From Hydrogenophaga sp. (lineage in GTDB: Bacteria; Pseudomonadota; Gammaproteobacteria; Burkholderiales; Burkholderiaceae_C), in NCBI RefSeq assembly GCF_025699295.1, contig NZ_JAILWB010000008.1, positions 62,001 through 126,000 of the forward strand: a stretch of 64,000 nt of DNA. Reading direction: 5' to 3'. Every line of letters starts with the position of its first letter. Position 1 is the stretch's first letter. Below the pieces are notes generated by a model, which had not been told where the DNA came from, did no database searches, and saw only the letters and a program-made list of their open reading frames with translations. Shown one piece after another: positions 1,880 through 59,314 of the stretch. The position numbers and the translations under genes were made by a program.

Positions 1880-1932
1880 AAGGCGAAGCTCGACCGCCGC
1901 GAGGCAGTCGATACCTCGCGGGGTTGATGGAG
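1880..1932 (-). promoter_or_regulatory. Structured leader L1 (alternative hairpins)
   Basis: Minus-strand leader starting ATCAACCCC. Stem B pairs CCGCGAGG with CCTCGCGG. The competing stem A pairs UCGACUG, from the loop of B, with downstream CGGUCGA. Compared with L2, the changes in stem B are compensatory (C-G to T-A). It precedes the truncated DndC-like gene. Confidence 0.7.
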
Positions 1933-1974
1933 CGCCCAGGCGATGCCGGGCGCGTGTAGCTCAGCAGTTGAGCG

Positions 1975-2175
1975 CTATTGCGACAGCCCGAGGGCTTCTC
2001 GGCGGTCGGCCGTGGTGAGCACAGTGTTGGCGCGGGCCAGCTGAGCCCAGGCGATTGCCGGAACCGTGGCCGTCCACTGCAGGCCGTACTGGCCCACGAG
2101 CGTCTTGAAGCTTGCCATCGCCTCCTCCCGCGTGGGAGGTTGCTCGGGCGCGCTGGGCATGAGTTGGTCTTGCAT
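1975..2175 (-). CDS. Small protein of unknown function (66 aa)
   Basis: The start MQDQLMPSAPEQ was chosen because it sits directly behind leader L2. A longer upstream reading would translate the leader itself. The product is soluble, with an alpha-helical look (REEAMASFKTLVGQYGLQW) and an alanine-rich C-terminus, and has no motif I recognise. It is the first gene of a two-gene unit with the DndC-like remnant and has its own regulon promoter at 2352-2393. Confidence 0.55.
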   Translation of the reverse strand: MQDQLMPSAPEQPPTREEAMASFKTLVGQYGLQWTATVPAIAWAQLARANTVLTTADRREALGLSQ

Positions 2176-2190
2176 GGTGAGTCTCAAAGT

Positions 2191-2238
2191 GAATGAAGAC
2201 CCACCGCCGTGAGGCAGTGAATCCTCACGGGGTTGATG
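2191..2238 (-). promoter_or_regulatory. Structured leader L2 (alternative hairpins)
   Basis: Minus-strand leader starting ATCAACCCC. Stem B pairs CCGTGAGG with CCTCACGG (8 bp). Stem A pairs UUCACUG with CGGUGGG through G-U pairs. It ends about 20 nt before the ATG at 2175 and is closely related to L1, with compensatory changes. Confidence 0.7.
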
Positions 2239-2351
2239 CGTTGCGCCGTAGGTGGTGCAGCGCTGTGGATGACACTCCGGAGTCACCCGTTGGGCTTGGC
2301 ATGCACAGCGCGATGGCGGCATGCGAGAACGTCAAAGACGAAAACGCTAGC

Positions 2352-2393
2352 AGTCTAGGCTGGGTTCGTGGCCCGCGCAAACGATCTGGCTTG
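2352..2393 (-). promoter_or_regulatory. Regulon promoter candidate for 1975-2175 (weak box)
   Basis: -10 TAGACT (2352-2357), 17 bp, -35 TTGCGC (2375-2380), 7 bp, then CAAGCC in the box position (2388-2393). The geometry is exact, but the box matches the TGGACC consensus poorly. I see nothing else in 2394-2583 apart from the upstream region of the plus-strand operon. Confidence 0.45.
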
Positions 2394-2583
2394 GCTGCGT
2401 CGCCGCCAAGGGGAGCGGGCCGCGGAGGGGATGTCTACATGCCCTGGTGCCGGTGTTGATCGCCCTTTGACGCTGTGGGGGCAGCCTATCTTTGTGGTGC
2501 GGAGGCCTTGACTGATCGCAGTTGAGTGCGACTCTGGGCTCATGAAGCTCTTCTCCATCAACGTTTCGAAAGACTCTTGAACC

Positions 2584-3030
2584 ATGACTGACATCAACCG
2601 TGGTGAAGACCACGAAGACTTGGCTGCGCGCTGCGCGGAAATTGAGCACTGGCAAAAGACAGGCTTGCTCAAAGGCGACGCGCTGCGCGCCTATGCTGAG
2701 CGGAAGTATCCAGGGGATGACCACGCGTTGCAGTTGGCAGAGGCCGACACGGCGCGCGAGGCATACCGGTTCGTTGCTTCTGCAAGCCTTGTTGTCCCCG
2801 TTGTGGACAAGCGGGACCACCGGGATGGCGCTCGCCTCAATGCCATGGAGCGCCACCGCATTGCGGTGATTCCTGAGTTCGAAGGCCCTTGGGATGCCGA
2901 AGTCTACGGTGAGGATGGCGAGCCGCAAGTTCGTGGAAGTGGCAACTCGCCGCGGGAAGCCATCGACAGTGCGCTGGTGGCGCTCGATCGCCTTCAAGAC
3001 GACGACAAGGGCATGGCGGACGCCTCATGA
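2584..3030 (+). CDS. Unknown protein, first gene of the glycosylase operon
   Basis: A 148-residue acidic protein of no recognised family. The first half is helical (AEIEHWQKTGLLKGDALRAY). The second half (residues 85-135: IAVIPEFEGPWDAEVYGEDG and onward) looks like a small beta-rich domain followed by a helix. Its stop overlaps the next start (ATGA at 3027-3030), so it is translationally coupled to the 94-residue protein and then to the HhH-GPD-like protein. Context suggests a role with that DNA-repair-like enzyme, but nothing in the sequence proves it. Confidence 0.6.
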   Translation: MTDINRGEDHEDLAARCAEIEHWQKTGLLKGDALRAYAERKYPGDDHALQLAEADTAREAYRFVASASLVVPVVDKRDHRDGARLNAMERHRIAVIPEFEGPWDAEVYGEDGEPQVRGSGNSPREAIDSALVALDRLQDDDKGMADAS

Positions 3031-3311
3031 AGATCGATCGCATGCGTGCCGGGATGGTGGTCTTCGATGTGGGCCGCTCGAAGATGGGGAACACGACTAT
3101 GACGACAGTCAGCGTGTGGCGAGTCCATATCAGTTCGGTTGATCTCGATGGCCGCCGAGTCGAAGCTTCCTGGAATGGAAACACGCCGAGGTGGTTCAGC
3201 GAGCGCCAGACGTCGAGGTGGCGTGAGAAGGCGCCCCTACTGGTGAAGATTGGCTACGGCTATCGCTTGGCAACGAGTGCCGAACTGAAAGCAGCGGGGA
3301 GGGCTTCGTGA
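3027..3311 (+). CDS. Small beta-rich protein of the glycosylase operon
   Basis: A 94-residue protein with repeated beta-strand patterns (VVFDVGRSKMGNTTMTTVSV, WRVHISSVDLDGRRVEASWN) and a conserved-looking tryptophan-rich middle. It overlaps both neighbours by 4 bp (ATGA at 3027, GTGA at 3308), so all three genes of the operon are coupled. No family is recognised. The fold could be a small SH3- or Tudor-like barrel, which is a guess from the strand pattern. Confidence 0.55.
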   Translation: MKIDRMRAGMVVFDVGRSKMGNTTMTTVSVWRVHISSVDLDGRRVEASWNGNTPRWFSERQTSRWREKAPLLVKIGYGYRLATSAELKAAGRAS

Positions 3312-5573: not shown

Positions 5574-7139
5574 TCAGAGGAAGGCTGCTGCCAACTCGTC
5601 GAGTTCGTCGACCGTCTGTTCAACGGCTTCGTGTTGTTCGTCCTGCGGTGCCTGCAGCACCAGCAAGACCGTTGGCACTTCGGTCCCCGAGGCCTTGAAC
5701 GCTCCGCGTCCAATCTGTTGGGTCGCCAGCGCGTGTTTTTCAACCCAGAGGGCGAAGGCGCGGCTCATGGCGTTGTCGGCCGTCTGCCAGGTCGTCGATG
5801 CGATGGCCGCCAGTCGACCGCCCGGCCTGACGAACTTCATGGCGTGCGTGATGTGCGCAATGTCCTTGCCACCGGAGAACGGCGGGTTGAGCAAGACGCG
5901 ATCAAAGCGCGGCGACGGCGCCACTTGCAGGAAGTCCTCGGGACGCTCAATGGCGAACCCCAGGCCTTGCAAATGCGCGACATTGCGCGGCATCAACTCG
6001 TGGCAGGTCACATTGGCCTTGCCCACCACCTCGGCCGCGGCCATGGCGATGGCGCCCTCTCCCGCCTGGGGTTCGAGCACCAGCATGCCTGGCTCCAGGC
6101 CCACTTGCAGCAGAAGCTGCGCCACAAGCTCGGGCGGCGTTGGGAAGAACTCATAGTCCTTGGACGTGAGCAGTTCCCCTTCGAAGATGGCTGTGGCGAT
6201 GGTCTCTGCCGGACTGGTAGAAAACACATGCGCTTGCTTCGGCGTGGACCACTTACCCCCCATTTCCGTGAGCACGTCGTTGACGGCCTTGTACAGCTTG
6301 GGTGACAGGCGCTCCACGATGCGGACCTCGTTGCCGGTGATCTGCACGTTGTTGAGCACAGCCAAAACGTCCTCTTTCAGCTTCGTCGCACGGGGGACCA
6401 TCGACGCACTGGAGGCGACGCCGGCAACCTTGCGCGAGGCGCCCTTGCCCTTGGGCAACGGGGCCGCTTTGAGCGGAGGGGCTACCTGCCAGTTCATCTG
6501 CATCGCTGGTACCTCAGTGGGCCAATTGCGCTCCGCGAACTTGATCGATAGCGATGAGCCTCGTGGCTCCTCATTGAGTGACACTTTCTCGACTGATTGG
6601 CGCGGCCAGCCAGGCTGGCTCACCAGGTACTGCAGCGCCTCGATGCGATCGAGCTGCTGCTTGCGTGCACGGTCTTCGAACACGGCCATGCGCAGCGTGT
6701 GCCACTCCGCGGCGACTTCAAGGACTTTGATGGTGGCGTCCATGTGCCAGTCCTCGGCAATTTCAGCCTTGCCCTTGAAGTTTTGCAGCAAGCACCAGGC
6801 GGAGTCCAGGCTGAGCACTCGGTCGTCGAGCGTTTCGGTATTCATCCGCATCGGATTCTTTGCAACGCCCAGCAGGGCCACGCATAGACTCAGCGGGTGA
6901 TTCGGCTCCAGCAAAAGTGCGTCGTGCACCGAGATCTGGATGTCATCGCCGATCGGGCGTGCACTGATCAGAGGCCGCGCTTGCGCGTCGCGCAGCTGAC
7001 GTGTGCCGTCCTCGGTTTCGAGGATCGTGGTGCCGTCGTCGAGTTCCAACACCGGCACTTCCCAAGGAAAGAGAGCGCGCAGGGCCAGGATGGGCGAGAT
7101 CTGCTTCAGGCGAGCCAGAAGCAACATGTGAGATTTCAT
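5574..7139 (-). CDS. DNA adenine methyltransferase-like protein with N-terminal extension
   Basis: A 521-residue protein. The start MKSHMLLLARLKQ was chosen because leader L3 lies immediately upstream. Residues 1-230 are of unknown function. From about 285 (LSPKLYKAVNDVLTEMGGKW) it resembles the lead-in domain of phage and plasmid class I methyltransferases. The SAM-binding motif VLEPQAGEGA lies near 358 and the catalytic NPPF motif (LLNPPFSGGKD) near 418, an order typical of N6-adenine enzymes. No restriction nuclease is adjacent, so it is an orphan enzyme. It may mask plasmid DNA from host restriction or have a regulatory role. It is driven by the regulon promoter at 7261-7302. Confidence 0.75.
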   Translation of the reverse strand: MKSHMLLLARLKQISPILALRALFPWEVPVLELDDGTTILETEDGTRQLRDAQARPLISARPIGDDIQISVHDALLLEPNHPLSLCVALLGVAKNPMRMNTETLDDRVLSLDSAWCLLQNFKGKAEIAEDWHMDATIKVLEVAAEWHTLRMAVFEDRARKQQLDRIEALQYLVSQPGWPRQSVEKVSLNEEPRGSSLSIKFAERNWPTEVPAMQMNWQVAPPLKAAPLPKGKGASRKVAGVASSASMVPRATKLKEDVLAVLNNVQITGNEVRIVERLSPKLYKAVNDVLTEMGGKWSTPKQAHVFSTSPAETIATAIFEGELLTSKDYEFFPTPPELVAQLLLQVGLEPGMLVLEPQAGEGAIAMAAAEVVGKANVTCHELMPRNVAHLQGLGFAIERPEDFLQVAPSPRFDRVLLNPPFSGGKDIAHITHAMKFVRPGGRLAAIASTTWQTADNAMSRAFALWVEKHALATQQIGRGAFKASGTEVPTVLLVLQAPQDEQHEAVEQTVDELDELAAAFL

Positions 7140-7155
7140 GGGGGGCCTGTGGAAA

Positions 7156-7210
7156 TGAAGGGCCCCCGACCCGTGAGGGGCAATGGAGCCCCTACTGGGT
7201 GGGTGAAGGC
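7156..7210 (-). promoter_or_regulatory. Structured leader L3
   Basis: Minus-strand leader starting CTTCACCCACCC. AGGGGC pairs with GCCCCT around a short loop, with outer CCC:GGG pairing and a downstream GGGGGCCC run able to compete. It is more divergent than the other copies. It precedes the methyltransferase at 5574-7139. Confidence 0.55.
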
Positions 7211-7377: not shown

Positions 7378-7478
7378 CCGAGGCCGCAAGGCTTCCCCGC
7401 TTCACCTCCCTGAGCGGGGTCTTCGCGTGTGACAGCAAGAAGACTTCCAAGCCCGGCCCATGGCCGGGTTTCTTTTTT
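7378..7478 (+). ncRNA. Candidate small RNA with anti-Shine-Dalgarno loop
   Basis: This lies between two minus-strand genes but points the other way. A TATGAT -10-like hexamer sits at about 7366-7371. The transcript would contain a hairpin CCCCGC (7395-7400) / GCGGGG (7414-7419) whose loop exposes CACCTCCCT, complementary to a GGAGG ribosome-binding site. It would end at the strong T-tailed hairpin at 7452-7478. No open reading frame of note is present. The -35 is poor, so the promoter is the weakest part of the call. Confidence 0.45.
7452..7478 (+). terminator. Plus-strand terminator
   Basis: CCCGGCC, three-base loop, GGCCGGG, followed by TTTCTTTTTT. The T tract is on the plus-strand side, although both adjacent genes are on the minus strand. 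This supports a plus-strand RNA ending here. Confidence 0.75.
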
Positions 7479-8802: not shown

Positions 8803-10845
8803 TCACTTGTTGTTGGGATTCACGATCGTGGCGTGGCGGTAGAACGCTCCATCGAGCGGGCCACCGTGCAACTCGCCCGGCTTGACGGCGTGCCAGATTG
8901 CGTCACCCAGTTGGGCTTCGCTCACCTGAACACCGCACGTGCGTTTGAGCTGCTGGCAGATCGCCCGGATCAGGTTGTCATCCATGGGGATCAGGTCCAG
9001 CTTCGCATCACCGTATTCATCGTCACCACGTTGCGCGCCGATGTGGTTTCGGCGAGCGCGCGCGATGCTGATCTGCCCGAGGTTGCGGTCGCTGAACTGC
9101 GGCCAGGTGTTCACGAGCAGTCGGCCGATGGTCTCGCTGAGATGGCTATCGCGCAGCAATCCGACCTTGAGGTCCCAATCGCGCTTTGCATCCTCTTCCC
9201 AATCCTCCACATAGTGGTTGTCGTCGGTGAAAGTCGAGAGCGCGTTGACGGGGTGGTCCTGTGCCTGCTCGCTGTTGCCCAGCAGCCAGGCGTAGTAGTT
9301 GTGGTCGCCGGCGCCGTACGCATCGACCGCCTCCAGTGTTTCGCCATCAGGCACGAAGAGCCAGTTGTTCTCGATGCGATGTTCCTCGCACCAGGCTGGA
9401 TCGACCTTGGAGGTCACGATCACCGTTGCTGCGGCCGCCTCGCGAATGTTCGCGTTGCAATCCTGCCAACAGTAGTCGACCGATTTCGCCCCGGGCGTCT
9501 CCAATTGCACCTCGAACTGCATGTCGGCACTGTCGGGCGCGATGCGGTTGATCCAGTGCTCTTCGTGCTGCGCATTGACCGAACGGATGTCGGCTACTTG
9601 CATCACTTTGAGCAGTGTGGCAGCCCAGGGATCTTCCTGAACGCAGCCTGGTGCGTTGCGCCAGACCTTGATCGCCCCGGACTTGACATCCTCATAGCTG
9701 ATCAGGGCCTCGCCGTCCTCGCCTAGTCCTCCCCACACGTGCGAAAGAACATCGGTGTAGTCGGTGTTGATGGCCACGGTGTTCACGTCCAGAAACTCAC
9801 GCCGCGGCATGAACGGCACGTCATTGAAAACGTGTCGGATGTTGAACTTGCTCGCCGGATTCCAGTACTTGCGCACGAAATCCTGGGGGTCGAGCACATC
9901 CTTCTGACTCACGATGTGGCGTCGGATCACTGCGCCAACCTCTTCCCAGATGCGGGCGACGTTCTTGTCGCGGTCGTACAGGTGAGAGCGGTCGGGCATG
10001 CGTGCTGTGAACTGTGAGGAGTCAAGGTGCACGATGTAGCTGATGCTGCCGTGGGTGTTGAAGCCGAATGGGCCGGCTTCAATGGGTAGGCCTTGCAGGT
10101 ACAGCGCGGTGTTGTTTGCGTGTGCAGGCGTCAACTCAGCGGCCCGTGTCGGCTTGGCGTGCATGAAGACTGCATGCACGTGGCCAATAGAGGTTGCCTC
10201 GCAGACGTCGCGCAGTGCCGGCAGAGAAGCATGCTGCGCCAGTGGCGTGCCGTTGTAGGTGACGGGCAGCGGGAAGCCACACACCAGGTGGTGGATGCGG
10301 GTCTCGAAGCTGTGCGTTTTGAAGTGCACCTGCTGCTGGGAACCCAGGAGATCGCGACTGGCGCCGACGAGTTCGATGCGGGTGGTCCACTCGCCCATTG
10401 CGGCGCGCTCCTCCTCGCTTTGCTCCTGCACGCTCAGCGCGCGCTGCTCGATGACATCGTCCTGGCTGAATACCAGGCGCTTTCCCTTGGAGTAGACCTT
10501 CACGCTCTGTGCGGCGAACGCGCAGGCGAAGAATCCCATGCCGAAGGGTTTGTCGACCAACTGCACCTCGGCGCTCTCCCAGCCGCTTCGGGCGAGGTCG
10601 AGTAGCACGTCGAAGTTGTCGATGCCCACACCGTCATCGCTGACGGTGATGAGCCTGGCCGCTTCGTCGCAGGTGATCGCGATCTTCGTGGCCTGTGCAC
10701 GCCGGCCGTTTTGCACCAGCTCGCCCATGACGGAGAAGCTGGAGGCAAACAGGTGGCGCATCGACTTGAAGAAGGCACGCTGATCAACGGTGGCACGCAC
10801 TGTTTGTTGCTCGCCATTGGTTGCGGTGGTTTCGATGGTTTCCAT
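8803..10845 (-). CDS. GHKL (Hsp90/MutL-like) ATPase protein
   Basis: A 680-residue protein starting METIETTATNGEQ directly behind leader L4 with an AAGGA ribosome-binding site. The N-terminal 220 residues carry the Bergerat ATP-binding motifs: GELVQNGRR (N box, Glu and Asn present) near 41-49, DDGVGI near 70 and KPFGMGFFACAFA near 102. The rest (residues 230-680) is not recognised and includes acidic and tryptophan-rich stretches. Orphan GHKL proteins occur in several bacterial conflict systems and in mobile elements (family knowledge). Its control by the same promoter and leader type as the methyltransferases suggests a joint programme. Confidence 0.75.
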   Translation of the reverse strand: METIETTATNGEQQTVRATVDQRAFFKSMRHLFASSFSVMGELVQNGRRAQATKIAITCDEAARLITVSDDGVGIDNFDVLLDLARSGWESAEVQLVDKPFGMGFFACAFAAQSVKVYSKGKRLVFSQDDVIEQRALSVQEQSEEERAAMGEWTTRIELVGASRDLLGSQQQVHFKTHSFETRIHHLVCGFPLPVTYNGTPLAQHASLPALRDVCEATSIGHVHAVFMHAKPTRAAELTPAHANNTALYLQGLPIEAGPFGFNTHGSISYIVHLDSSQFTARMPDRSHLYDRDKNVARIWEEVGAVIRRHIVSQKDVLDPQDFVRKYWNPASKFNIRHVFNDVPFMPRREFLDVNTVAINTDYTDVLSHVWGGLGEDGEALISYEDVKSGAIKVWRNAPGCVQEDPWAATLLKVMQVADIRSVNAQHEEHWINRIAPDSADMQFEVQLETPGAKSVDYCWQDCNANIREAAAATVIVTSKVDPAWCEEHRIENNWLFVPDGETLEAVDAYGAGDHNYYAWLLGNSEQAQDHPVNALSTFTDDNHYVEDWEEDAKRDWDLKVGLLRDSHLSETIGRLLVNTWPQFSDRNLGQISIARARRNHIGAQRGDDEYGDAKLDLIPMDDNLIRAICQQLKRTCGVQVSEAQLGDAIWHAVKPGELHGGPLDGAFYRHATIVNPNNK

Positions 10846-10863
10846 GTGATTCCTTGGGGGACA

Positions 10864-10917
10864 AGACCGGGAAACGCATCCCCCGGGCCGGGAGTGGTTC
10901 CCGGGCGGGGTTGAATC
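10864..10917 (-). promoter_or_regulatory. Structured leader L4 (alternative hairpins)
   Basis: Minus-strand leader starting ATTCAACCCCGCCC. Stem B pairs CCGGGA with TCCCGG around ACCAC. The competing stem A pairs CCGGGAA with downstream TTTCCCGG. The leader ends about 20 nt before the ATG at 10845. Confidence 0.7.
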
Positions 10918-10993
10918 GCTCCTGCTGGAGCAGATGGGTGTTGGCGGCCGCGAGAGGGCCGCGTGCTGGATGCATGGATCCAAGACGAGGGGA

Positions 10994-13883: not shown

Positions 13884-14966
13884 TCATGGCTGCGCCGAGG
13901 GGACTTCCTCAATCATGTGGTGTGCCATCTCTTCGGCCTCGCGTGTGTAGCCAAGCTCGATGAGGTCGGTCAGGCATTCGAGGGGCGTTGCATATCGCGC
14001 GCCCATTGATTCGCCGTTGAGGCTCTCGATGAAGAATGGGTCCCAGGTGTGATGTACGGCCAGCACTACCTTCTGCGCTGGATCCGTGCGCGGCACCAAG
14101 CCAGCGTTGAGCCTGCGCACGAAACTCGAATCGTTGCCTTGCACGGAAAAGTCGATCCGCGGGGGCGCGCTGATGTCGAGGTACTCGAAGTGGTGCGCTG
14201 CGCCGGCGACGCCGCCGATTCGTACGCCCTCGCTCTTGGCTCCCGCCAGTTGCCTGTTGATCCACAGTTTTTGCAGGCGCTGTGGCGTTTCCATGCCAGT
14301 CGGGTCGACAAAGTACTCCGAGGTGCGCACCGCGGCGTGCTCGCGCGCGAGCTGCATCAGCTCACGCTGCTCGGGCATTCGAAGTCTTACCGATGTGCCC
14401 ACCTCCTCAAGCAGGCGCTTCTCGCGCAGATCCTGCAGCGCCGCGGCCACTGTCGGATAACTCACGCCTGCTGTGCGTTGGAGCGCCCCGATGCGCATCG
14501 GGGTGGGGTCGTGCGCCCACAGTCGGTGAGCGACAAGGGTCGCCACGACAGCATGACGTGCCGGAAACACGTCCTTGGCGCCGCCCCCACCTTGGCCGGC
14601 GGCCCTCATTTCACTGGCGATGAGCTCTTGCAGCCAGTTGTAGAACTCGCTGGGCTTGTTCATCATGGAGCCGGTGAAAGTGCCGTCCTGCGTGTGCAGC
14701 AGGCAATGCACGCGATCCCTCAGGTCTGGGCGCACCAGGCTTCGAATCGCCTGCAGTTCGTCGAGCACCCGCGTCTCGGAGAGCCGCGTCTCGGTGAGGA
14801 CGCCCACCGCCTGCGCTTTCTTGGGCTGTTCGTCCAGGACCTGAAGCATCATCAAAACCATGTCGCGCACATCGCGCATGCTGCTGGTTTTCTTCACCTC
14901 GACGAGGATCGGGCCGCCCGCGCCGTCCCAGCGTCCGTCGAGGTCCTGTAGGGCGGGAAATTTCAT
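13884..14966 (-). CDS. AbiEi-like antitoxin with winged-helix DNA-binding domain
   Basis: A 360-residue protein. The N-terminal 95 residues have a nuclease-like strand pattern (GGPILVEVKKTSSMRDVRDM). Residues 155-200 form a winged helix (ALQRTAGVSYPTVAAALQDL, then EKRLLEEVG), as in AbiEi antitoxins that repress their own operon (family knowledge). The promoter region just upstream holds repeated GTTGCGACTT sequences in direct and inverted orientation, which fits autoregulation. It is longer than typical AbiEi proteins (about 200-280 residues), mostly because of its N-terminal extension. Confidence 0.65.
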   Translation of the reverse strand: MKFPALQDLDGRWDGAGGPILVEVKKTSSMRDVRDMVLMMLQVLDEQPKKAQAVGVLTETRLSETRVLDELQAIRSLVRPDLRDRVHCLLHTQDGTFTGSMMNKPSEFYNWLQELIASEMRAAGQGGGGAKDVFPARHAVVATLVAHRLWAHDPTPMRIGALQRTAGVSYPTVAAALQDLREKRLLEEVGTSVRLRMPEQRELMQLAREHAAVRTSEYFVDPTGMETPQRLQKLWINRQLAGAKSEGVRIGGVAGAAHHFEYLDISAPPRIDFSVQGNDSSFVRRLNAGLVPRTDPAQKVVLAVHHTWDPFFIESLNGESMGARYATPLECLTDLIELGYTREAEEMAHHMIEEVPSAQP

Positions 14967-16495: not shown

Positions 16496-17119
16496 TCAGC
16501 AGACGCTGGCCATGGCGGCATCAGCCAGGCTGGCGATCAAGTTGTTGGCTCGCTGCACATGCGCGGCAAGCATCGGGTCTTGGCTGCACTCGCTTGCGGT
16601 GGGCATCAAGAAGGCGCCAATGACGCGCTCGCCCGGGTTCGCGTTCTCGCACTGCTCGATGGCATGCCTCACGTTCTCAGCCTCGCAGGCGAAGAGCAGC
16701 GTGTGCTCGCCGTAGGTGAGCATCCAGTTGCTCAGCAGACCGGTGCGGTCCTCGCTGTCGGTCGAGGCGTTTGCGGGGAGTTCTCCCGCTCGCGCGGCGT
16801 CGAGCATCTCCTGCGTGATCTCGGTCAGTTCGCCCACGGAAAAGTAGGCCTTGACCGCATCGACCGCTTCGACCTCGAACGGGCCGTAGTGCGCCCACGC
16901 GACGGCGTCCACGAACTCGTCGCTGCTGGCATCTCGGTCCTTGATCGAGTGGATCTCGCGTAGGGACAGCTGCAGCAGGTGTTCGGTGGCATCCTTCGCT
17001 TCGGGTTGCCCGATGGGGATGGCCGTGTTGGCGATCCAGGCCTGAGGCACGAAGTTGACGAACAGGCGTCGTGCGATGGGAGCTTTGTTGATGGTGTTGG
17101 TGGTGTTGGTGGTGTTCAT
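16496..17119 (-). CDS. Unknown protein (207 aa) with Asn/Thr-repeat N-terminus
   Basis: The start MNTTNTTNTINK lies behind leader L5. The first ten codons are a 9-bp DNA repeat and probably disordered. Residues 15-40 have a hydrophobic strand pattern (RRLFVNFVPQAWIANTAIPI). The remainder contains acidic helices. No family is recognised, but style and length match the other small genes that follow structured leaders. It is the third gene of an operon running from 17922. Confidence 0.55.
   Translation of the reverse strand: MNTTNTTNTINKAPIARRLFVNFVPQAWIANTAIPIGQPEAKDATEHLLQLSLREIHSIKDRDASSDEFVDAVAWAHYGPFEVEAVDAVKAYFSVGELTEITQEMLDAARAGELPANASTDSEDRTGLLSNWMLTYGEHTLLFACEAENVRHAIEQCENANPGERVIGAFLMPTASECSQDPMLAAHVQRANNLIASLADAAMASVC
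17093..17116. repeat. 9-bp tandem repeat inside a gene start
   Basis: GGTGTTGGT is repeated two and two-thirds times in frame and encodes the Asn-Thr-Thr repeats. Slippage would add or remove three residues without shifting frame. Confidence 0.7.
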
Positions 17120-17121
17120 GG

Positions 17122-17172
17122 TGTACCAGGCGTTGCCTGGGCGTCCTCGCGGACAGCCCAGGCGGGTTTTAT
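17122..17172 (-). promoter_or_regulatory. Structured leader L5 (alternative hairpins, operon-internal)
   Basis: Minus-strand leader starting AAAACCCGCC. A long stem GCCTGGGC:GCCCAGGC encloses GTCC:GGAC. A second stem, CCAGGC:GCCTGG, uses the same 3' arm and reaches almost to the ATG at 17119. No promoter of the regulon class lies here, so it acts inside the operon. Confidence 0.65.
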
Positions 17173-17979: not shown

Positions 17980-18040
17980 CACCTACCCCTGCCGGGGGAG
18001 GCCCATCTACGGGGGATGGGATTGCCGGGAGGGTTGAGGC
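17980..18040 (-). promoter_or_regulatory. Structured leader L6
   Basis: Minus-strand leader starting CTCAACCCTCCC. CCCATC pairs with GATGGG around CCCCGTA, and the loop C run can instead pair with GGGG downstream. Unlike most copies it ends nearly 60 nt before the start codon at 17922. Confidence 0.55.
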
Positions 18041-18091
18041 CGGCGTCGCTTGCGCGAGACGCCGACGTGGCACGAATGCCGTGGTGAATCG

Positions 18092-43257: not shown

Positions 43258-43290
43258 TTGTACTCCTTGTTTTTGGTTGTGAAACCTGCC

Positions 43291-43331
43291 AAGGAGCACC
43301 CCTGACGGGGTGTTCCCGTCAGGGTGGTGAA
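43291..43331 (-). promoter_or_regulatory. Structured leader L13 (alternative hairpins)
   Basis: Minus-strand leader starting ATTCACCACCC. Stem B: CTGACGGG (43302-43309) with CCCGTCAG (43315-43322). Stem A: GGAaCACCCC with GGGGUGcUCC (43293-43302 with 43307-43316), one mismatch. They share arms and exclude each other. It ends 33 nt before the ATG, leaving room for a separate ribosome-binding site. Confidence 0.75.
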
Positions 43332-43379
43332 TGCGTGCGCTGGGGCACGCGTCTGTCGCAATTGCGAAAGGTGGCCAGA

Positions 43380-50827: not shown

Positions 50828-53800
50828 CTAAGCCGCCTCGGCCTCCATTGCTGAAGTGCCAACTGTCGCTTTGTCGAGGTCCAGCTCGGCCTCGATCTCG
50901 CGTTGACGCGCGCGCGCCGCCTCAAGCTCGTCGCGGAACTCGAAGTCCATGTCGAGCATCGCCTGGATGCCGGCGAGTTCCTCGGTCTTGTGACCGAATT
51001 CCTCACGCAGGTCCTGCGGCCACTTCACGAAGTCCTTGAAGGTCTCGTAAGCAGCCAGGCCGACGCCGCTCATGTCCGCCATCTGCGGTCGGTTGACGCG
51101 CACTCGCATGCCCGTCGACGTCTCCCGCAGGATCAGGTCGGTCGTGCCGCCCCAGCGTGAGGCTTCAAGCACGAAGTTGCCGATGCGCGCGATCACGGTG
51201 TCGCCACCGTTGATCTTGCTCACTGCCCTCAATGCCATCCCCACAGCCAGGTAGTTGTCCGTCTCGCCCGCCATTGCCGCCGCTGCTGTTGCCAGCATTG
51301 GTTGGAAGGCAACCTCGGGCGTGATCGCCGCGGCTTCTCGGGAAACCCCCTCGACCTTGGCCATGTTTTTCTCGATCCAGTTGAGCCGCTGCTGCAGGTC
51401 GGCCTTGCGGCGTCCCATCTTCCAGCGATCCTGCTCAAAGTGGTCAAACTTCAACGAGAGCTTTTGCACCTTCGCGTCCACCGTTGCCTTCTCAAGCACC
51501 AGCGGATTGCCCGACGCAATCGCCTTGATCTCCGCGTAGGACAGCGCCGTCATGGAGATGTCCTCCACGGTGCGCAATCCCTGCTCGGCCGTCATCACCT
51601 GGTCGATGAATCTCGCCTTCACGTCCAGCAGGTTCCAGCTGTAGCTGTCGAACGAGCCTTCGGTCACGTAGCGCCAGAGTTCGATGCTTTCACATTCGTT
51701 GCCCTGACGGTCCGCGCGTCCGTCTCGCTGCTCGACATCCGACGGGCGCCATGGGGCGTCAATCTGATGCAGTGCCTTCAGCCTGGTTTGCACGTTCGTT
51801 CCGGTACCAAGCATCGGCGTGGACCCAAACAGCACTCGCACGATGCCCTCACGGACCTTCTTGAACAGCTTCGCTTTCGCGCTGTCGCTTGAGTGGTCCT
51901 GAATGAACGCAATCTCGGCTTCCGGGATCCCTTTCGCAACGAGTAGGCGCTTGACCTCCTCATAGACCGAGAACCCAGGCGCGCCAGGCGTGCCCAGGTC
52001 ACTGAACACCAGCTGCGTCAGCCGTTGCTGCGCACCGTCCTTCCAGATGCGGAACACGTTGCTTGCGGCCTTCGCCAGCTTGCCCTCGGGATCGAACGCA
52101 GCGCCTGGGATCACCATCCGCACGTCGATCGCCGCGCGGCGGCCATCGTTGGTCACTGCGAGCATGTTGTCTTCCTCGGGCTTGACCGCGCGGTTGCGAA
52201 TCTTGTCCGCACGCTCGACCAGTCCCTTGATCACTTCCTTGAGCACATCGCTAGGCTCTGCCACCATGACCTGAGGCTTGCCGCCTTCGATCACCGGTGT
52301 GGGGAGGTTCAACATCCGCTTGGTTCTGACATCCGCGACCCCTTTGAAGATCGCCATCAGTTCCGGCAGGTTGGAGAAACGACAGAACCGAGTGTTTGTC
52401 CTGAAGCCGCTGCCATCCGGCGCCAGCTCTATACCTGTGACGCTCTCGCCGAAGCTTGCCGCCCAGGCGTCGAACTCGTAGATGCCGTAACGCCGGAGCG
52501 TGCGCGGCTGCAAGTACATCTGGAAGGTATGCATCTCACAGATCGAGTTCGCCAGAGGCGTTGCCGTCGCCATCGTCAGCCCCTCCTCCTTGCCCCCGCG
52601 CATATCCATGATGACTCGCGTCTTCATGAACACATCGAACGCTCGCTGTGAGGCGGTGTTCGGAATCCCCGCGATGCGTGGCATCTTGGTGATCTTCTGC
52701 AGGTTCTTGTAGGCATGGGCTTCATCGATGAACAGGTAGTCGACGCCCAGGTCGTCGAACCACACTGCCGTCTCGTCGGCCTTTCCGCTCTCCACCAAGC
52801 GTTCCAGCTTGGCTTCGTAGTCCTTCATCCGGCGCTCGATCTCCTTGATGGATCGCTTTGCGCCCGAGTCTGACGTGAGCGAGAGCGACATGCGCGCCTC
52901 ACTCATCATCTGTTCGATGAAGTCCTGTTGCACCTCGGGACTCAGCATCAACCGTTCGAAGGTCGACTGCGTCATCACGACTGCATCCCAGTCACCCGTG
53001 GCCACTCGCGCCACGAACGTGCGGCGTTTGTCGCCACTGAGATCCTCTTTCGTTGCCATCAGCACCTTTGCCTGCGGATACAGGCGCAATGCTTCAGCGC
53101 AGTACTGCTCAAGGGTAGAGCCCTGAACCACATGCAACGGCTTGCGAGCCTTGCCAAGTCGGCGCAACTCCATACCTGCTGCAATCATCGTGAGCGTCTT
53201 GCCCGCGCCGACGCAATGCGCCAGCAAGGTGTTGCCATTCACGACGATCCGCCAGATGGCGTCCTTCTGATGCGGGTAAGGCACCACCACCGCGCTCATG
53301 CCCGGCAGCTGAAGGTGTGATCCGTCAAATCGCCGGGGGACGACTTGGTTGAACGTGTCGTTGTACAGGCGCAGCAGCCGGTCACGGCGTGCGTCATCGC
53401 GGTAGACCCAATTCCTGAACTGGTCCCGAATCGCTTGCCATTTCTCGCGCGCGCTCAGAGTTGCCTGGGGGTCGACCATCGACGTGCCGTTGATCGTCAC
53501 CAGCACGGTTGGCGGCTGCTGGTTCAACGCGGCTTCCACCAGTTGCAACGCACAGCGTCTTTCCGTTCCCCACTTTGTGGTCTGCAGTGTGTAGTCGCCC
53601 ACGTTCTGCAGCCTGTAGCCCCCCTTGACGCTCCACGTCGCCGTGTTCACGTCATAGCTCACCGTGATCTCATTCCGGGTGTCGTTCACCAGCTCCGCCG
53701 CGAACGTCTTGACGACGTCGGTGGGAATCCACGGTGCACCCAGTCTTGCCTCCACCTCGGCAGGGCCCAGGTCGGAAGGAATCACGGCCTCAAGGGCTGG

Positions 53801-55978
53801 GATGTTGCTTTCGTAAGCGGGCCCCGCGGCCTTGGCTTGCTCGATCTTTTCGCGAATGTGCCCCGAGAGGTATTCATCCGCGGGAACCCAACACGCCAGC
53901 ATAGGGTCGCGAAACGCGGTGCCATGCGCCTTGAGTTCGTTGACCACTTCCATCACCGGCTTGCCGGTGCGGAGCGCCATGTCCTTCAGAACGATCCGAC
54001 CGTAAACGGCCAGGCTCAGCAGCATCGCGTCCTTTGCGGTTTCCACCTTGTCAGGCAGTACCACTTGTCCGACGGTGCGCTTGGTGAAGACGTCAGCCTT
54101 GACGGCCTTGCCCTCCTCATCGTCCCAGATCTCCAACGCGAGCATCAGCGGCCAGCTGGGGTCTCCTCGCATCACACGGCTGTTAGCCGTAGTGCTCAGG
54201 TAGCCCATCTGCGCCACGTAGGCGTCGTACACCTTGTTCAGATGCTGTTGGTGTTTGGCGAGTGCGACGTCATCTTCCGAGGATGCCTGAAACTCGATCA
54301 CGGCCTTGGCCGCATCGCGAACCTCGACCATGCCCAGCAAGCGCTTGCGCGCGGTGCCTGCGTACAGCGAGTCCACGTCGACAAGTTCGTCACCCTCAGA
54401 GATGCAGATCCGACCACCTTGCATCACAAACGCCCCCGGCAGGGCCTGGGTGGTGTTGCTGTAGCGGACCATCGCACTCGGAGCAGCGTCAAACTGATCC
54501 ATTGCTCTCGGCACGTAGACCCCGGAGGGCATGCACGTGGCGATCAGCTGGTTGAGCGCAATGCCCAACTGCTCGGTGTCACCGTCGAAGACGGGCACGG
54601 CCTCTTCGCCGTACTGAGCCGACTGCCATGCGAGCTTGCCCAGGATGTGATCCGGGTTGCGCACGTAGTAGCTGTTGATGGCCACCTTCTGCTCGTAGGA
54701 GCGCCCGGTTGCACGGTTGTATGCGTACTTCGAGGTCGGTTGACCGTCCTTGAACATCGCGTCACTCGCGCCTCCTAGCTCGACCCATCCAGCTTTTGCA
54801 CTGAAGTCAGGCAACTCCCGGCGCTTGAGCACCAGGATGTCCGTCACCGCTTGCGTGTTTGCAAACGACTCGAACGCCATCGTTGGCAGACGGAAGGCCC
54901 CAAGCAGTTCGGCGTGAGCCGAGAGCCACTTGCGATGCTTGTCGCTGATGCTGTCCAGACTCTGACGAGTTGTGATCATCACCATCAGGCCACCCGGTCG
55001 CACCAACTCCAGCCCCTTGCCGAGGAAGTAGTTGTGGATGCTCCAGTCGGCATACGGTGCCTTGCTCACGTCCTTCGTTTTGTACTTGCCGAAGGGTGCG
55101 TTCGTGACGATCAGGTCAAAGAACGCCGTGGGCAGCTTCGCTTCTTCCAGTCCACAGGCATGAACCTGCAATCCGTAGGGTGCGAAGTTGGCTTCCAGGA
55201 TGCTTGCGCTCACCGAGTCGAGCTCGACTGCGGTCAACTCGCTCTTGGCCACCATGGCTTGGGGCATGCCAGCGATGATGTGCCCGACGCCAGCGGCAGG
55301 TTCGAGAACCCGCCCGCCTTCGAAGCCCAGCTGGTCCACGATGCGCCAGAGCGCCTGCACCACGTGCGGGTCCGTGTAGAACGCCGTGTTCACGGACGAC
55401 TGCATCTCTGCAAACTCCCGTTCAGTGGTCAGTGCTTTGAGTTCATCTCGCAGAACAGAGAACGCGTGCTGTTTGGATCCGTCCGGGGAAAACACCCGAG
55501 CCGTTCCGCCCCAGCCGCTGTACTTCAGCAGCTGCACCATTTCCTGCTCACTGGGCTTGGCCTTGTCTTGCGACAGCCTTCGCACCAGCTTGATTGCGGA
55601 GATGTTGTCCAGGACGCGCTGCTCAGCCGAAGCCGATGGGCGATAGTCGTCCGAGTCAATCAAGGGCCACAGCGTCTTGCGGACAGCGATGTCCAGATCG
55701 TTGTTGGCCTCTCCCCAGCCTGCCAGGACCTGATCAACGATGCTGCCCAAGGCATCACCGCTGTCGGCTTCAGCACTGCTGAGGACTTCGATTTCCTCGC
55801 CATGTTCGGGGGCACTCGAAACGGACTGGTCCATTTCCAGAGCCACCTGAGCGATGACGGAGGTGACCACAGCGATCTCAGTCTTGCGAGAGGGGATCTC
55901 GAAGTCTTCGAACGTCAGGCCACCGGCCCACTTCACCGATTCGGCAACGCGGGCTGTTTGATGGGCATTGGATGCCAT
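50828..55978 (-). CDS. Giant DNA methyltransferase-helicase fusion (DarB-like)
   Basis: A 1,716-residue protein. Residues 220-300 contain a SAM-binding motif VLEPAAGVGHIIAG and the catalytic-type VTNAPFGKYK, an adenine-methyltransferase core with Ala in place of the usual second Pro. From about 918 (AHCVGAGKTLTMIAAGM) comes a superfamily-2 helicase: FIDEAHAYKN (about 1085) is the DEAH box, and DVEQRDGRADRQG (about 1421) the arginine-finger motif. This layout matches DarB of phage P1 and similar plasmid proteins that protect incoming DNA from restriction (family knowledge). Start: MASNAHQTARV with GGAG 8 bp upstream. Leader L14 precedes it. Confidence 0.8.
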   Translation of the reverse strand: MASNAHQTARVAESVKWAGGLTFEDFEIPSRKTEIAVVTSVIAQVALEMDQSVSSAPEHGEEIEVLSSAEADSGDALGSIVDQVLAGWGEANNDLDIAVRKTLWPLIDSDDYRPSASAEQRVLDNISAIKLVRRLSQDKAKPSEQEMVQLLKYSGWGGTARVFSPDGSKQHAFSVLRDELKALTTEREFAEMQSSVNTAFYTDPHVVQALWRIVDQLGFEGGRVLEPAAGVGHIIAGMPQAMVAKSELTAVELDSVSASILEANFAPYGLQVHACGLEEAKLPTAFFDLIVTNAPFGKYKTKDVSKAPYADWSIHNYFLGKGLELVRPGGLMVMITTRQSLDSISDKHRKWLSAHAELLGAFRLPTMAFESFANTQAVTDILVLKRRELPDFSAKAGWVELGGASDAMFKDGQPTSKYAYNRATGRSYEQKVAINSYYVRNPDHILGKLAWQSAQYGEEAVPVFDGDTEQLGIALNQLIATCMPSGVYVPRAMDQFDAAPSAMVRYSNTTQALPGAFVMQGGRICISEGDELVDVDSLYAGTARKRLLGMVEVRDAAKAVIEFQASSEDDVALAKHQQHLNKVYDAYVAQMGYLSTTANSRVMRGDPSWPLMLALEIWDDEEGKAVKADVFTKRTVGQVVLPDKVETAKDAMLLSLAVYGRIVLKDMALRTGKPVMEVVNELKAHGTAFRDPMLACWVPADEYLSGHIREKIEQAKAAGPAYESNIPALEAVIPSDLGPAEVEARLGAPWIPTDVVKTFAAELVNDTRNEITVSYDVNTATWSVKGGYRLQNVGDYTLQTTKWGTERRCALQLVEAALNQQPPTVLVTINGTSMVDPQATLSAREKWQAIRDQFRNWVYRDDARRDRLLRLYNDTFNQVVPRRFDGSHLQLPGMSAVVVPYPHQKDAIWRIVVNGNTLLAHCVGAGKTLTMIAAGMELRRLGKARKPLHVVQGSTLEQYCAEALRLYPQAKVLMATKEDLSGDKRRTFVARVATGDWDAVVMTQSTFERLMLSPEVQQDFIEQMMSEARMSLSLTSDSGAKRSIKEIERRMKDYEAKLERLVESGKADETAVWFDDLGVDYLFIDEAHAYKNLQKITKMPRIAGIPNTASQRAFDVFMKTRVIMDMRGGKEEGLTMATATPLANSICEMHTFQMYLQPRTLRRYGIYEFDAWAASFGESVTGIELAPDGSGFRTNTRFCRFSNLPELMAIFKGVADVRTKRMLNLPTPVIEGGKPQVMVAEPSDVLKEVIKGLVERADKIRNRAVKPEEDNMLAVTNDGRRAAIDVRMVIPGAAFDPEGKLAKAASNVFRIWKDGAQQRLTQLVFSDLGTPGAPGFSVYEEVKRLLVAKGIPEAEIAFIQDHSSDSAKAKLFKKVREGIVRVLFGSTPMLGTGTNVQTRLKALHQIDAPWRPSDVEQRDGRADRQGNECESIELWRYVTEGSFDSYSWNLLDVKARFIDQVMTAEQGLRTVEDISMTALSYAEIKAIASGNPLVLEKATVDAKVQKLSLKFDHFEQDRWKMGRRKADLQQRLNWIEKNMAKVEGVSREAAAITPEVAFQPMLATAAAAMAGETDNYLAVGMALRAVSKINGGDTVIARIGNFVLEASRWGGTTDLILRETSTGMRVRVNRPQMADMSGVGLAAYETFKDFVKWPQDLREEFGHKTEELAGIQAMLDMDFEFRDELEAARARQREIEAELDLDKATVGTSAMEAEAA

Positions 55979-55999
55979 GTGTTTCTCCATTCCTGTTGA

Positions 56000-56063
56000 G
56001 GAAATGCAGGAAACACACCCCTCCCTTGCGGGAGTGGCGTGCATTCCCGCGAAGGTTTTGAAG
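56000..56063 (-). promoter_or_regulatory. Structured leader L14 (alternative hairpins)
   Basis: Minus-strand leader starting TTCAAAACCTTCG. Stem B: GCGGGA with TCCCGC. Stem A: GGAA..CAC..CC with GG..GTG..TTCC, enclosing CTCCC:GGGAG. Precedes the giant helicase gene. Coordinates may be off by one. Confidence 0.65.
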
Positions 56064-56111
56064 GTTGGTGTCCGCCCCCCTGGGCTTGAAACTCCAAGGG
56101 AGCATCTGGGT

Positions 56112-56152
56112 GCGCTAAGGCGCCCGGATGTACAACGAAGGCGACGCGTCCA
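56112..56152 (-). promoter_or_regulatory. Regulon promoter candidate for 50828-55978 (weak)
   Basis: Box TGGACG (56147-56152), 7 bp, -35 TTCGTT (56134-56139), then TAGCGC 16 bp away (56112-56117). Spacing and hexamers deviate from the strong members. Confidence 0.35.
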
Positions 56153-56202
56153 GATGGGAAGCGCCGTCTTGTTCAAGTGCTCTCGGTGTGAACGCACTTG
56201 AA

Positions 56203-56674: not shown

Positions 56675-56976
56675 TGGTTCATCGCGCTCGGCTCGAAAGC
56701 CTCCAGCAACGCGGCCATGACTTTCGCCTGGTCCGACGATGCGTCGCTGTTGGCGAATTGCTCCAGGTCGAGCTCAGCACGCTTGTCGTCCACAGTTGCC
56801 TGATTCACGACTTCTGTCATTCGCTCTTCCCGGGCCTTGTCCGCGGCGCGCTGCACCTTGGCCATTTGCTCTCGGCGCCGTTTCTCACGATCTTTTGCCT
56901 GCGCAGCACCGTCATAGCCGTTGATGGCAATGCTGATCTTGCGTGGGCGCTCGATGTCAAAGTGGTTACGCGACAC
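56650..56976 (-). CDS. Unknown charged protein (108 aa)
   Basis: Highly charged, with a long helical region (KDREKRRREQMAKVQRAADK). Coiled-coil or nucleic-acid-associated by composition. Overlaps the upstream gene by 11 bp. No family is recognised. Confidence 0.5.
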   Translation of the reverse strand: MSRNHFDIERPRKISIAINGYDGAAQAKDREKRRREQMAKVQRAADKAREERMTEVVNQATVDDKRAELDLEQFANSDASSDQAKVMAALLEAFEPSAMNQCVDGEGK

Positions 56977-57223
56977 AGCAGCCTCCCACGTCGTCCATCA
57001 ACGAAACGAAGTTCGGGTGTACCGACCACTTGGTGTCGTTGAGCGCCTCGAAGCTGCTCTGGTTGTAAGTCCGGGAAGCTTCGCCCGAATCGAGCGAGAA
57101 CACGCGGATCTCGTCATTGCGCTCGGGCTTGACTGCAACTGGGCGTCCACCCAGGTAGATCACAAGTGGCTCCCCAACGCTATCCGCAGCCCGGGCGCTG
57201 GAAAGCAGGTTGTTGTAGTTCAT
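56966..57223 (-). CDS. Unknown small protein (85 aa)
   Basis: The start MNYNNLLSSARAADSVGEPL lies behind leader L17. A beta-rich core (LVIYLGGRPVAVKPERNDEI) ending in a cysteine pair (DDVGGCCVA). No family is recognised. First gene of its operon. Confidence 0.5.
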   Translation of the reverse strand: MNYNNLLSSARAADSVGEPLVIYLGGRPVAVKPERNDEIRVFSLDSGEASRTYNQSSFEALNDTKWSVHPNFVSLMDDVGGCCVA

Positions 57224-57259
57224 TGTTCTATCTCCACGTGGTCGTGCGACCACGAATGC

Positions 57260-57317
57260 GACGCTTCTGGCCGTTGCGGGCGCAGAAGCGCCAAAACGGC
57301 GGGTTTGTCTTGAGACT
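57260..57317 (-). promoter_or_regulatory. Structured leader L17 (alternative hairpins)
   Basis: Minus-strand leader starting CTCAAGACAAACCC. Stem B: GCCGTT with AACGGC. Stem A: CGCTTCT with AGAAGCG, enclosing GCC:GGC. A further GTGGTCG..CGACCAC hairpin lies closer to the start. Confidence 0.65.
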
Positions 57318-58332: not shown

Positions 58333-58412
58333 TCACCCTGGCGCCAAAGCAAATCAGTGCAATCCTGCCGTGGCCACCACGTCATTTAGCAGGTAAAAGT
58401 CAGAGCCATGAA

Positions 58413-58448
58413 AAAAGGCCTGCCCTCCCGAAGGAGCGCAGGCCTTTT
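58413..58448. terminator. Bidirectional terminator
   Basis: AAAAGGCCTGC (58413-58423) pairs with GCAGGCCTTTT (58438-58448), enclosing CTCC:GGAG. Between convergent genes. Confidence 0.85.
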
Positions 58449-58457
58449 CGTTGCTCG

Positions 58458-59015
58458 TTAGCGCCAATACGCCACGGGCTGTTGCAATGCCCTGACCACG
58501 CGGTACGTACCCGCGGAATTGATCAGGAAGACTCGTTGACCAGGTGCAACCGCGTCGAAGGGCGCGGGCTGCACGATGGTGATGACGCGCGCCGGCATGC
58601 CGTTGCGGCCTTGCAGTTGCAAGACGATCTCCTGCGCCTGATTGGTCGCCATGGCCGTCGTCACACGTTCGCCAGCGAGGCCACCCAGGGTGGTTCCGAT
58701 GACGGTTGCTGCGCTGTTGGTCGAGGCCTTGCGGCCCAACAACCCGCCAACAACTGCTCCGACACCGGTGCCCGCTGCGCGAGCTTGCCAGGTCGGCTCG
58801 GTACGCGCCATGCGAACCTGCACCACCACGGCGTCCTCAGTTTGCGAGTAGACCTGTGCTTGGCCGCTGCCGTACACGTTGCCCGACTGAGCATGCGCCT
58901 TGTCGGGGACCATCATCACGAAGCCGACCACCAGGACCGCGAGGATCTCGGCGGCGGCGAGAGCAATCGAGCTCGCAGAAGCTTTGCGAAGTGCAGAAAC
59001 GATGTTGAAGTTCAT
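58458..59015 (-). CDS. SlyB-like glycine-zipper protein
   Basis: A 185-residue protein. A signal-like hydrophobic segment (residues 17-36: IALAAAEILAVLVVGFVMMV), then a soluble part with a glycine-zipper region (GTGVGAVVGGLLGRKASTNS, GTTLGGLAGERVTT). This pattern is typical of SlyB/17-kDa surface antigen proteins (family knowledge). No lipobox cysteine is seen. Lies downstream of the pilus genes with leader L15; probably a cell-envelope accessory of pilus assembly. Confidence 0.65.
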   Translation of the reverse strand: MNFNIVSALRKASASSIALAAAEILAVLVVGFVMMVPDKAHAQSGNVYGSGQAQVYSQTEDAVVVQVRMARTEPTWQARAAGTGVGAVVGGLLGRKASTNSAATVIGTTLGGLAGERVTTAMATNQAQEIVLQLQGRNGMPARVITIVQPAPFDAVAPGQRVFLINSAGTYRVVRALQQPVAYWR

Positions 59016-59040
59016 GGGATTTCCTTTGAGTGAGAGAGCG

Positions 59041-59085
59041 CAAAGGAATCCCCCCTGCAGGGAGGTTTCCCTGCAGGGTTGCAAT
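59041..59085 (-). promoter_or_regulatory. Structured leader L15 (alternative hairpins, operon-internal)
   Basis: Minus-strand leader starting ATTGCAACCC. Stem B: CCCTGCAG (59053-59060) with CTGCAGGG (59071-59078). Stem A: GGGAA..CCTCC with GGGGG..TTCCT, enclosing the GCA loop. The two share the middle arm. Confidence 0.7.
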
Positions 59086-59104
59086 ATGGAGACGATGACG
59101 ACGG

Positions 59105-59260
59105 TCAGTTGTCGTCGAACATGAAGTCGACTTCACGGAACGGATCCGCGTCGGCGACCTTTTCGTCTTCTTGGTGATGGTCGGCTAGTGACGATTCGTG
59201 GCGGCCCCTGAAGGCGCCAAGAACTACGATCAGACCGACGAAGGCGAGGAGGTATTGCAT
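59105..59260 (-). CDS. Small membrane protein (51 aa)
   Basis: MQYLLAFVGLIVVLGAFRGR: a single hydrophobic segment, then an acidic tail (DEKVADADPFREVDFMFDDN). Start chosen behind leader L16 with an AGGA site. Probably a pilus or envelope-associated small protein. Confidence 0.55.
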   Translation of the reverse strand: MQYLLAFVGLIVVLGAFRGRHESSLADHHQEDEKVADADPFREVDFMFDDN

Positions 59261-59276
59261 ATCAGTTTCCTGGTAT

Positions 59277-59314
59277 GGAACCCCCCCCGACGGGACAGGT
59301 CCCGTCTGGGTGAA
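59277..59314 (-). promoter_or_regulatory. Structured leader L16 (alternative hairpins)
   Basis: Minus-strand leader starting CTTCACCCAG. Stem B: GACGGGA (59289-59295) with TCCCGTC (59300-59306). Stem A: GGGACC with GGTTCC (one G-U), enclosing TCCC:GGGG. An eight-C run lies inside the plus-strand copy. Confidence 0.65.

Follow-up and report, generated by a model that had tools for sequence, protein, structure and literature searches.

We analysed a 64,000-nucleotide stretch of a Hydrogenophaga sp. genome (4.69 Mb), hereafter the window, that forms bases 62001-126000 of the 220,462-base contig NZ_JAILWB010000008.1 (C41) and in which a family of structured leaders precedes the start codons of many genes. 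The contig is a conjugative element, either a plasmid or integrated, related to leader-bearing megaplasmids of Hydrogenophaga, Polaromonas and Rhodoferax. Conjugation genes lie outside the window (TraI_2, whose counterpart on PBL-H3 is annotated as a MobH relaxase, TraD/TraG, VirB4-like, TrbI and a secretin), with a shufflon pilin and DnaB encoded inside it. A first-pass annotation of the window had proposed 17 leaders, each with two mutually exclusive hairpins. The family is borne out, with 16 candidates listed, 13 of them matched by a covariance model and one more supported through its orthologues; the other two are weak and a 17th member was not found.

Read 5′ to 3′, a leader consists of a lead, a GGG-rich arm1 with its loop, arm2, a G-run, arm3, the ribosome-binding region and the start codon. 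The lead is conserved and nearly G-free (consensus approximately UUYAUCAACCC in 196 leaders). Arm1 pairs with arm2 to form stem B, which the lead can lengthen by pairing its ACCC with the G-run that follows arm2. Alternatively, arm3 can join arm1 and the loop in stem A, so that arm1 is common to both stems, as the first-pass annotation had it. A third pairing, stem C, had been overlooked: the ribosome-binding region immediately 5′ of the start codon is, in many leaders, complementary to arm3 as well. Because arm3 cannot be in A and C together, nor arm1 in A and B together, B plus C and A are alternative states.

The type example is the leader of a DpdA-like gene (Pfam DpdA) at 20770-20846 on the minus strand, examined by folding and energies. 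It comprises the lead (20846-20828), arm1 (20827-20822), loop (20821-20817), arm2 (20816-20811), G-run spacer (20810-20805), arm3 (20804-20795), the Shine-Dalgarno (SD) sequence GGAG (20782-20779) and the ATG (20769-20767). Stem B (CGGGAT:ATCCCG, 20827-20811) and stem A (GGGATCACGC:GCGTGGTCCC, ending at 20795) lie where they had been placed. Stem C joins CGTGG..CTCCAT with ATGGAG..CCACG just 5′ of the ATG (20803-20799 with 20776-20772, and 20795-20790 with 20784-20779); in the leader at 43324 it joins GTGCTCCTTG with CAAGGAGTAC. The arm pairs previously read in other copies are also present, namely CCGCGAGG/CCTCGCGG at 1921, CCGTGAGG/CCTCACGG at 2230 and GCCGG..AGCCTC/GAGGCT..CCGGC at 39946.

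A covariance model search had been proposed by the first-pass annotation. Model R1 was built from 16 sequences (13 on C41, 3 elsewhere) with stem B and the lead:G-run pairs and no A or C pair, and was then run over C41, a second contig (C22) and three named plasmids. It matched 13 of the window candidates at E<=0.13, all on the minus strand and ending 16-32 nt before the chosen start codon; ten of the 13 were in the training set and so match by construction, the others being 40588, 43290 and 59045. The type example scored 38.5 bits (E 4e-8, training set). The remaining training-set leaders lie at 1866-1934 (E 1.3e-8; A -15.8, B -15.8, C -3.8), before the gene 1308-1865 (185 aa), whose product has a partial DndC/CysD likeness below the curated cut-offs (NCBIfam); at 2176-2243 (E 1.2e-7; C -12.6), before the open reading frame (ORF) 1975-2175 (66 aa), where arm3 can pair with the stretch adjoining the ATG; at 7140-7210 (E 1.1e-6; C -17.6), before 5574-7139 (521 aa, a weak methyltransferase-like match); at 10846-10921 (E 1.9e-9; C weak, -5.2), before 8803-10845 (680 aa, Pfam HATPase_c_3); at 19139-19209 (E 7.9e-6; C -13.1), before 18209-19138 (309 aa if the start is GTG 19138, picked by analogy with the type example); at 23807-23883 (E 4.7e-10; C weak, -4.4), before 23018-23806 (262 aa if the start is GTG 23806); at 39886-39962 (E 1.3e-7), before 39037-39885 (282 aa), with orthologous leaders on the BPS33, PBL-H3 and Rhodoferax plasmids; at 41652-41718 (E 2e-5), before 41037-41651 (204 aa); and at 59261-59321 (E 2.5e-5; C weak, -4.7), before the ORF 59105-59260 (51 aa).

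The three matches outside the training set lie at 40572-40639 (E 0.13; stem B poor), before 40224-40571 (115 aa); at 43258-43334 (E 0.0011; C -19.0, ten pairs over the SD), before the ORF 42859-43257 (132 aa); and at 59016-59089 (E 0.00053; C -15.9; with orthologues), before 58458-59015 (185 aa, a weak glycine-zipper/OmpA-like match). The leader at 55979-56067 (56050) precedes 50828-55978 (1716 aa, Eco57I/ResIII helicase; the Pfam match was made on the longer ORF 50828-56197) and reached only E 4.3, yet its orthologues on two plasmids reach E 0.015 and 0.11. R1 gave no support for the two weak candidates, which are a possible divergent leader at 57224-57310 (57292) before the ORF 56966-57223 (85 aa), recognised by eye and energies only, and a hairpin, doubtful as a member, at 17120-17160 (17149, the 17122 of the first-pass annotation) before the gene 16496-17119. 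All of these are on the minus strand. The first-pass annotation had also argued, from several copies inside operons, of which it named three, that control is probably per gene; this is supported, although one of the three examples (17122) is not a model-supported member. C41 also holds copies beyond the limits of the window, among them those near contig positions 159531, 180172, 184214 and 193743. Separately, C22 of the same genome carries four counted leaders at 19410-32334 (minus strand) and may be a further part of the element.

If the pairings are genuine, the arms of one leader should match each other better than arms exchanged between leaders. We therefore compared own and swapped arms over 20,000 permutations. 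With 18 hand-picked copies, stems A, B (17 copies) and C each gave 0/20000, and pairing of arm1 or arm2 with the ribosome-binding region gave no gain (0.086 and 0.196). The test was repeated on 70 leaders, obtained from 77 R1 matches by removing five antisense matches, one terminator-like match and one partial match; 16 of the 70 are R1's training set. Own arms again outperformed swapped arms for B (-11.1 vs -7.8), A (-16.4 vs -9.9) and C (-11.7 vs -7.5), each at 0/20000, with no gain in the own direction for five control pairings (smallest 2379/20000). The same held in the 53 leaders not on C41, which include three training sequences. A second model (R2), made from the R1 matches, was used to find leaders in other genomes: 135 matches gave 132 with a start codon, 129 after removal of antisense or short rows and 111 after removal of near-duplicates. 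In these 111 leaders from 14 other genomes A, B and C each gave 0/20000 and five controls showed no gain (smallest 1325/20000). All three stems are thus specific to their own gene, and A has one arm in common with B and one with C.

The first-pass annotation had also claimed covariation between copies. In addition to the swap tests of A and B, stem B showed 155 doubly changed cells against 59.8 in shuffles and a score of 0.295 against 0.097 (0/500 shuffles; 125 distinct rows), in an alignment that was fitted to that structure and includes a few antisense rows. The interior of stem A (156 of 181 leaders) contained 215 G.U and 19 A.C combinations, compared with 51.6 and 15.5 when swapped; this preference for G.U over A.C indicates a sense-strand RNA. 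Stem B had no such bias (25 G.U, 24 A.C). An inner mini-stem of C-run and G-run, proposed to accompany stem A, can pair, but its letters hardly vary and covariation says little for or against it; swap tests of lead:G-run (7494/20000 and 13452/20000) and arm2:G-run (289/20000) are similarly uninformative. A mimicry of the ribosome-binding region by arm1, scored as shared letters, was tried and set aside, the effect being small (3.79 vs 3.57, 254/20000).

Leaders fold unusually well relative to shuffled sequences: in 17 leaders of the contig the mean z was -4.0, with 15 below -2, compared with a mean of -0.22 and 12 of 107 below -2 at other gene starts of the contig. In the ensembles of the 70 full leaders, at least three arm3:ribosome-binding-region pairs were held in 57 and A outweighed B in 10; the median cost of freeing the ribosome-binding region was 8.0 kcal/mol. 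The distance from the model end to the chosen start codon was 15-26 nt in 157 of 181 leaders. These start codons were chosen by script, five were overridden by eye and several lie inside longer open frames, which makes them putative; many annotated starts on PBL-H3 and JS666 agree with them.

From these sequence comparisons we propose, with a probability of about 0.7, that each leader acts in cis as a two-state RNA switch on the translation of the gene behind it. In the OFF state, arm1 would pair with arm2 in a stem B lengthened by the lead ACCC:G-run pairs, and arm3 would pair with the ribosome-binding region in stem C. In the ON state, arm3 would be taken by arm1 and the loop in stem A, B and C would be blocked and the ribosome-binding region would be free. 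Arm1 would therefore act as a decoy for the ribosome-binding region. The ON and OFF assignment, the level of control and the trigger are inferred. The first-pass annotation had placed control at translation or termination; given stem C, translation is the likely level, and intrinsic termination is unsupported by the T-run counts given below. A translational switch is characterised by competing helices, of which one takes up the ribosome-binding region, and the in silico swap tests point to both features here. As to the trigger, our first choice would be a common trans factor (a protein or small RNA) that recognises the conserved lead, weakens the lead:G-run clamp and shifts the leader towards A; numerous genes of the element would in this way be switched together. 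The second choice needs no factor: A would form on the nascent RNA and relax to B plus C, so that only new mRNA is translated.

Several observations weigh against this proposal. Stem C shows no marked preference for G.U (91 G.U vs 78 A.C), is weak in several leaders (1921, 10904, 23867 and 59306), and a leader's own C was no better than the swapped row mean in 14/70 and 21/111 leaders. Some controls were not null, namely arm2:arm3 (61/20000) and arm1:SD (371/20000) in 17 C41 copies and arm2 against the arm3 part of the stem-half test described below (171/20000), and across the 70 leaders the lead pairs with its own SD less than with swapped SDs (19974/20000). Stem A is favoured over B in 17/70 full leaders, so some would be ON by default, and the 15 nt before the start are barely less open than in other genes (mean 0.43 vs 0.48). 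Among 12 orthologue groups, own and cross pairings differ little (A -16.5/-15.4, B -11.8/-11.2, C -12.7/-11.4), and formal covariation of A in five DUF3150 leaders was not above shuffles (187/500), there being too few changes. A trans factor did not emerge from an all-versus-all comparison of ORFs of partial elements, or among the listed occurrences of an antisense-lead pattern. ProQ matches fell outside the leader contigs in 5/5 genomes, and 0/3 plasmid records had one. CsrA (PF02599) was found in 0/8 genomes or records, the same search being positive in 3/14 control genomes, and a CsrA-regulated leader is not supported.

The second choice of trigger can also stand as an explanation on its own, in which the leader is a kinetic timer: A on the nascent RNA leaves the start site open until the mature mRNA refolds to B plus C and is silenced, without a trans factor. 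Consistent with this, A beats B in 46/70 leaders when the RNA extends 4 nt beyond the model end of arm3, compared with 17/70 for the full leader, and 28 change sign between the two; the G.U-rich stem A also looks tuned. However, 42/70 keep their sign, A wins in only 28/70 when the RNA ends exactly at the model end, and conservation of the lead beyond its C-run would be unexplained. The estimates are purely thermodynamic. We regard a pure timer as unlikely, if a serious contender.

In a further alternative, sensors upstream of the lead bind a signal and the switch serves as their expression platform, as in a riboswitch or a protein-sensing leader; the sensor would be radC RNA (RF01754) in some islands and other hairpins elsewhere. 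Rfam places 11 of 12 radC RNAs of four partly homologous loci directly 5′ of, or overlapping, a leader (L113:8575-8790, L114:8487-8701, L116:7329-7544 and L110:13210-13366), although L113, L114 and L116 are homologous and the 11 cases are not independent. On the other hand, radC RNA is a separate 149-nt model with no match in the window at the gathering score or at E<=5, nor in six other leader-rich loci at the gathering score, and there is no strong motif or fixed-position conservation 5′ of the lead in the 196 leaders. A sensor as the explanation seems doubtful.

An H-type pseudoknot, with stem B plus loop:arm3 pairing in place of stem A, would account for the gene-specific pairing of loop and arm3 (-3.0 vs -2.0, 0/20000 in 180 leaders). 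However, the stem-B part of arm1 also pairs specifically with the portion of arm3 that lies past the partner of the loop (-6.1 vs -4.3, 0/20000 in 147 of the 180, with a control at 171/20000), which a pseudoknot does not need. As a replacement for stem A we consider it improbable; it may be an intermediate.

Action as single-stranded DNA (ssDNA) during conjugation, as a promoter or a protein site, would suit leaders that sit on mobile elements and mostly on one strand per cluster. In Frpo-type single-strand DNA promoters, the promoter elements lie within or adjoin a hairpin; no promoter-like motif was found at a fixed distance from the 196 leaders and no sigma-70-like site in 18000-24500, the sole stretch scanned. 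The G.U preference of stem A beyond swapped pairs is as expected of sense-strand RNA, and both the position before start codons and the pairing of arm3 with the ribosome-binding region argue against ssDNA. A published precedent is the STAXI motif, likewise a structured element near DNA-handling genes, which its authors considered as possible ssDNA (PMC2864571); it consists of tandem pseudoknots, and the accessible portion of that paper names no link to ribosome-binding regions. We therefore hold the ssDNA explanation to be very improbable. Least credible is a transcription attenuator with A as intrinsic terminator and B as antiterminator, since, although A is GC-rich and T runs follow it in some leaders (JS666 6/20, G549 8/18), at least five T follow arm3 in just 26/181 leaders and 0/17 on this contig, and stem C would be left unexplained.

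The preferred reading, a translational switch, is of a kind already known, in which the helices of a leader compete around the ribosome-binding region. In translational riboswitch platforms, mutually exclusive 5′-leader helices decide the pairing of the ribosome-binding region, as they would here; in contrast, no conserved aptamer core was found in the leaders, and a single architecture recurs repeatedly on each replicon, with arms particular to each gene. Type I toxin mRNAs with metastable structures (hok) regulate start-site access through the order in which they fold or through refolding, whereas the leaders stand before a wide range of genes on each element, with no toxin genes among those annotated, and no antisense RNA was identified for them. 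What is new is the repeated, gene-private use across mobile elements. No leader in the window reaches the gathering score of any Rfam 15 family, nothing in Rfam corresponds to the switch itself in the leader-rich loci, and no description of the leaders was found in a literature search that left most subscription papers outside its reach; radC RNA is listed in a table of PMC2864571. The only Rfam match in the window is an anti-hemB RNA at 7394-7477 (+; 58.7 bits), on the opposite strand and some 180 nt 5′ of the 7193 leader.

Leaders persist with orthologous genes in related elements. The C41 DUF3150 protein is 78% identical to its counterpart on a plasmid of Hydrogenophaga sp. BPS33, 73% to that on a Hydrogenophaga sp. 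PBL-H3 plasmid and 55% to that on a Polaromonas sp. JS666 plasmid, and the gene keeps its leader in C41, in these three and in one Burkholderiales metagenome-assembled genome. At one loop/arm3/pre-start triple, these leaders read C/G/C in three cases, A/U/A in JS666 (its pre-start base read after a by-eye shift of the gap) and U/U/A in PBL-H3, which loses the A-stem pair and retains the C-stem pair. No recognisable leader stood just upstream of the homologues of gene 39037-39885 on plasmids of M. petroleiphilum, B. vietnamiensis and Caballeronia (L125, L127 and L128), and no viral contig carried the gene. With protein 13884-14966 as a guide, one relative was found (G047); a hairpin scan of its contig showed no leaders, and R1 over three of the four G047 pieces gave weak matches only (best E 0.039).

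In wider searches, R2 matched 44/299 genomes of the family (E<=0.01), 25/369 of the class (E<=0.003) and 8/398 of the phylum (E<=0.002), the last all from the same class; the draws overlap, and the genome studied here and that of PBL-H3 are counted in each. Seventeen loci from 14 genomes (320,563 bases), chosen for having matches, contained 135 at E<=0.1, most of those within a locus sharing a strand. Among named records at E<=0.05, the Rhodoferax ferrireducens T118 plasmid had 13 matches, pTM3 of the alphaproteobacterium Tistrella mobilis four, Burkholderia vietnamiensis G4 two and Caballeronia grimmiae one (the last two records both weak), and Methylibium petroleiphilum none. The genes behind leaders include those for DpdA-like proteins, C5 methyltransferase, RecT, SSB, RadC, ribonucleotide reductase, DUF3150, DUF3577, DUF4942, DUF6094 and Eco57I/helicase proteins, and also N6/N4-methyltransferase-like proteins that score below the curated cut-off.

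More tentatively, and with rather less than even confidence, a post-transcriptional regulon may operate on conjugative plasmids and islands, mainly those of this proteobacterial class. Isostructural switches with private sequences would stand before many genes of a block, all read through one common lead, whether by some factor or purely through folding kinetics, and sensor domains (radC RNA, for instance) would be optional additions at the front. radC RNA would then gain an expression platform, and the leaders would offer a possible route to its function. If the switch reading is correct, mobile DNA would carry an extensive and apparently undescribed level of gene control, in which one design is repeated many times across each element with co-evolving private sequences. 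As a ready-made collection of two-state RNAs, the leaders would also allow the sequence determinants of a switch to be tested, and they could help to explain the timing of gene expression on large conjugative elements, for methyltransferases, recombination and SSB among others.

Some further features accompany individual leaders. Behind the leader at L011:18281 (C41) lies an ORF of 18 codons extending as far as the next start codon, perhaps for translational coupling; its counterparts L073:8021 (BPS33) and L056:10248 (PBL-H3) have similar short starts downstream. Just 5′ of the DUF3150 leaders (L010 13594-13647, with equivalents in L073, L057 and L123), and likewise of the leader at contig position 184214 (L011 18281-18329), there is a short hairpin whose loop reads CUUAG and whose stem varies. 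Elsewhere in the window, the PilV-like pilin gene with the shufflon N-terminal match lies at 59415-61031 (minus strand), and two tandem 53-nt copies at 36409-36514 are 81% alike.

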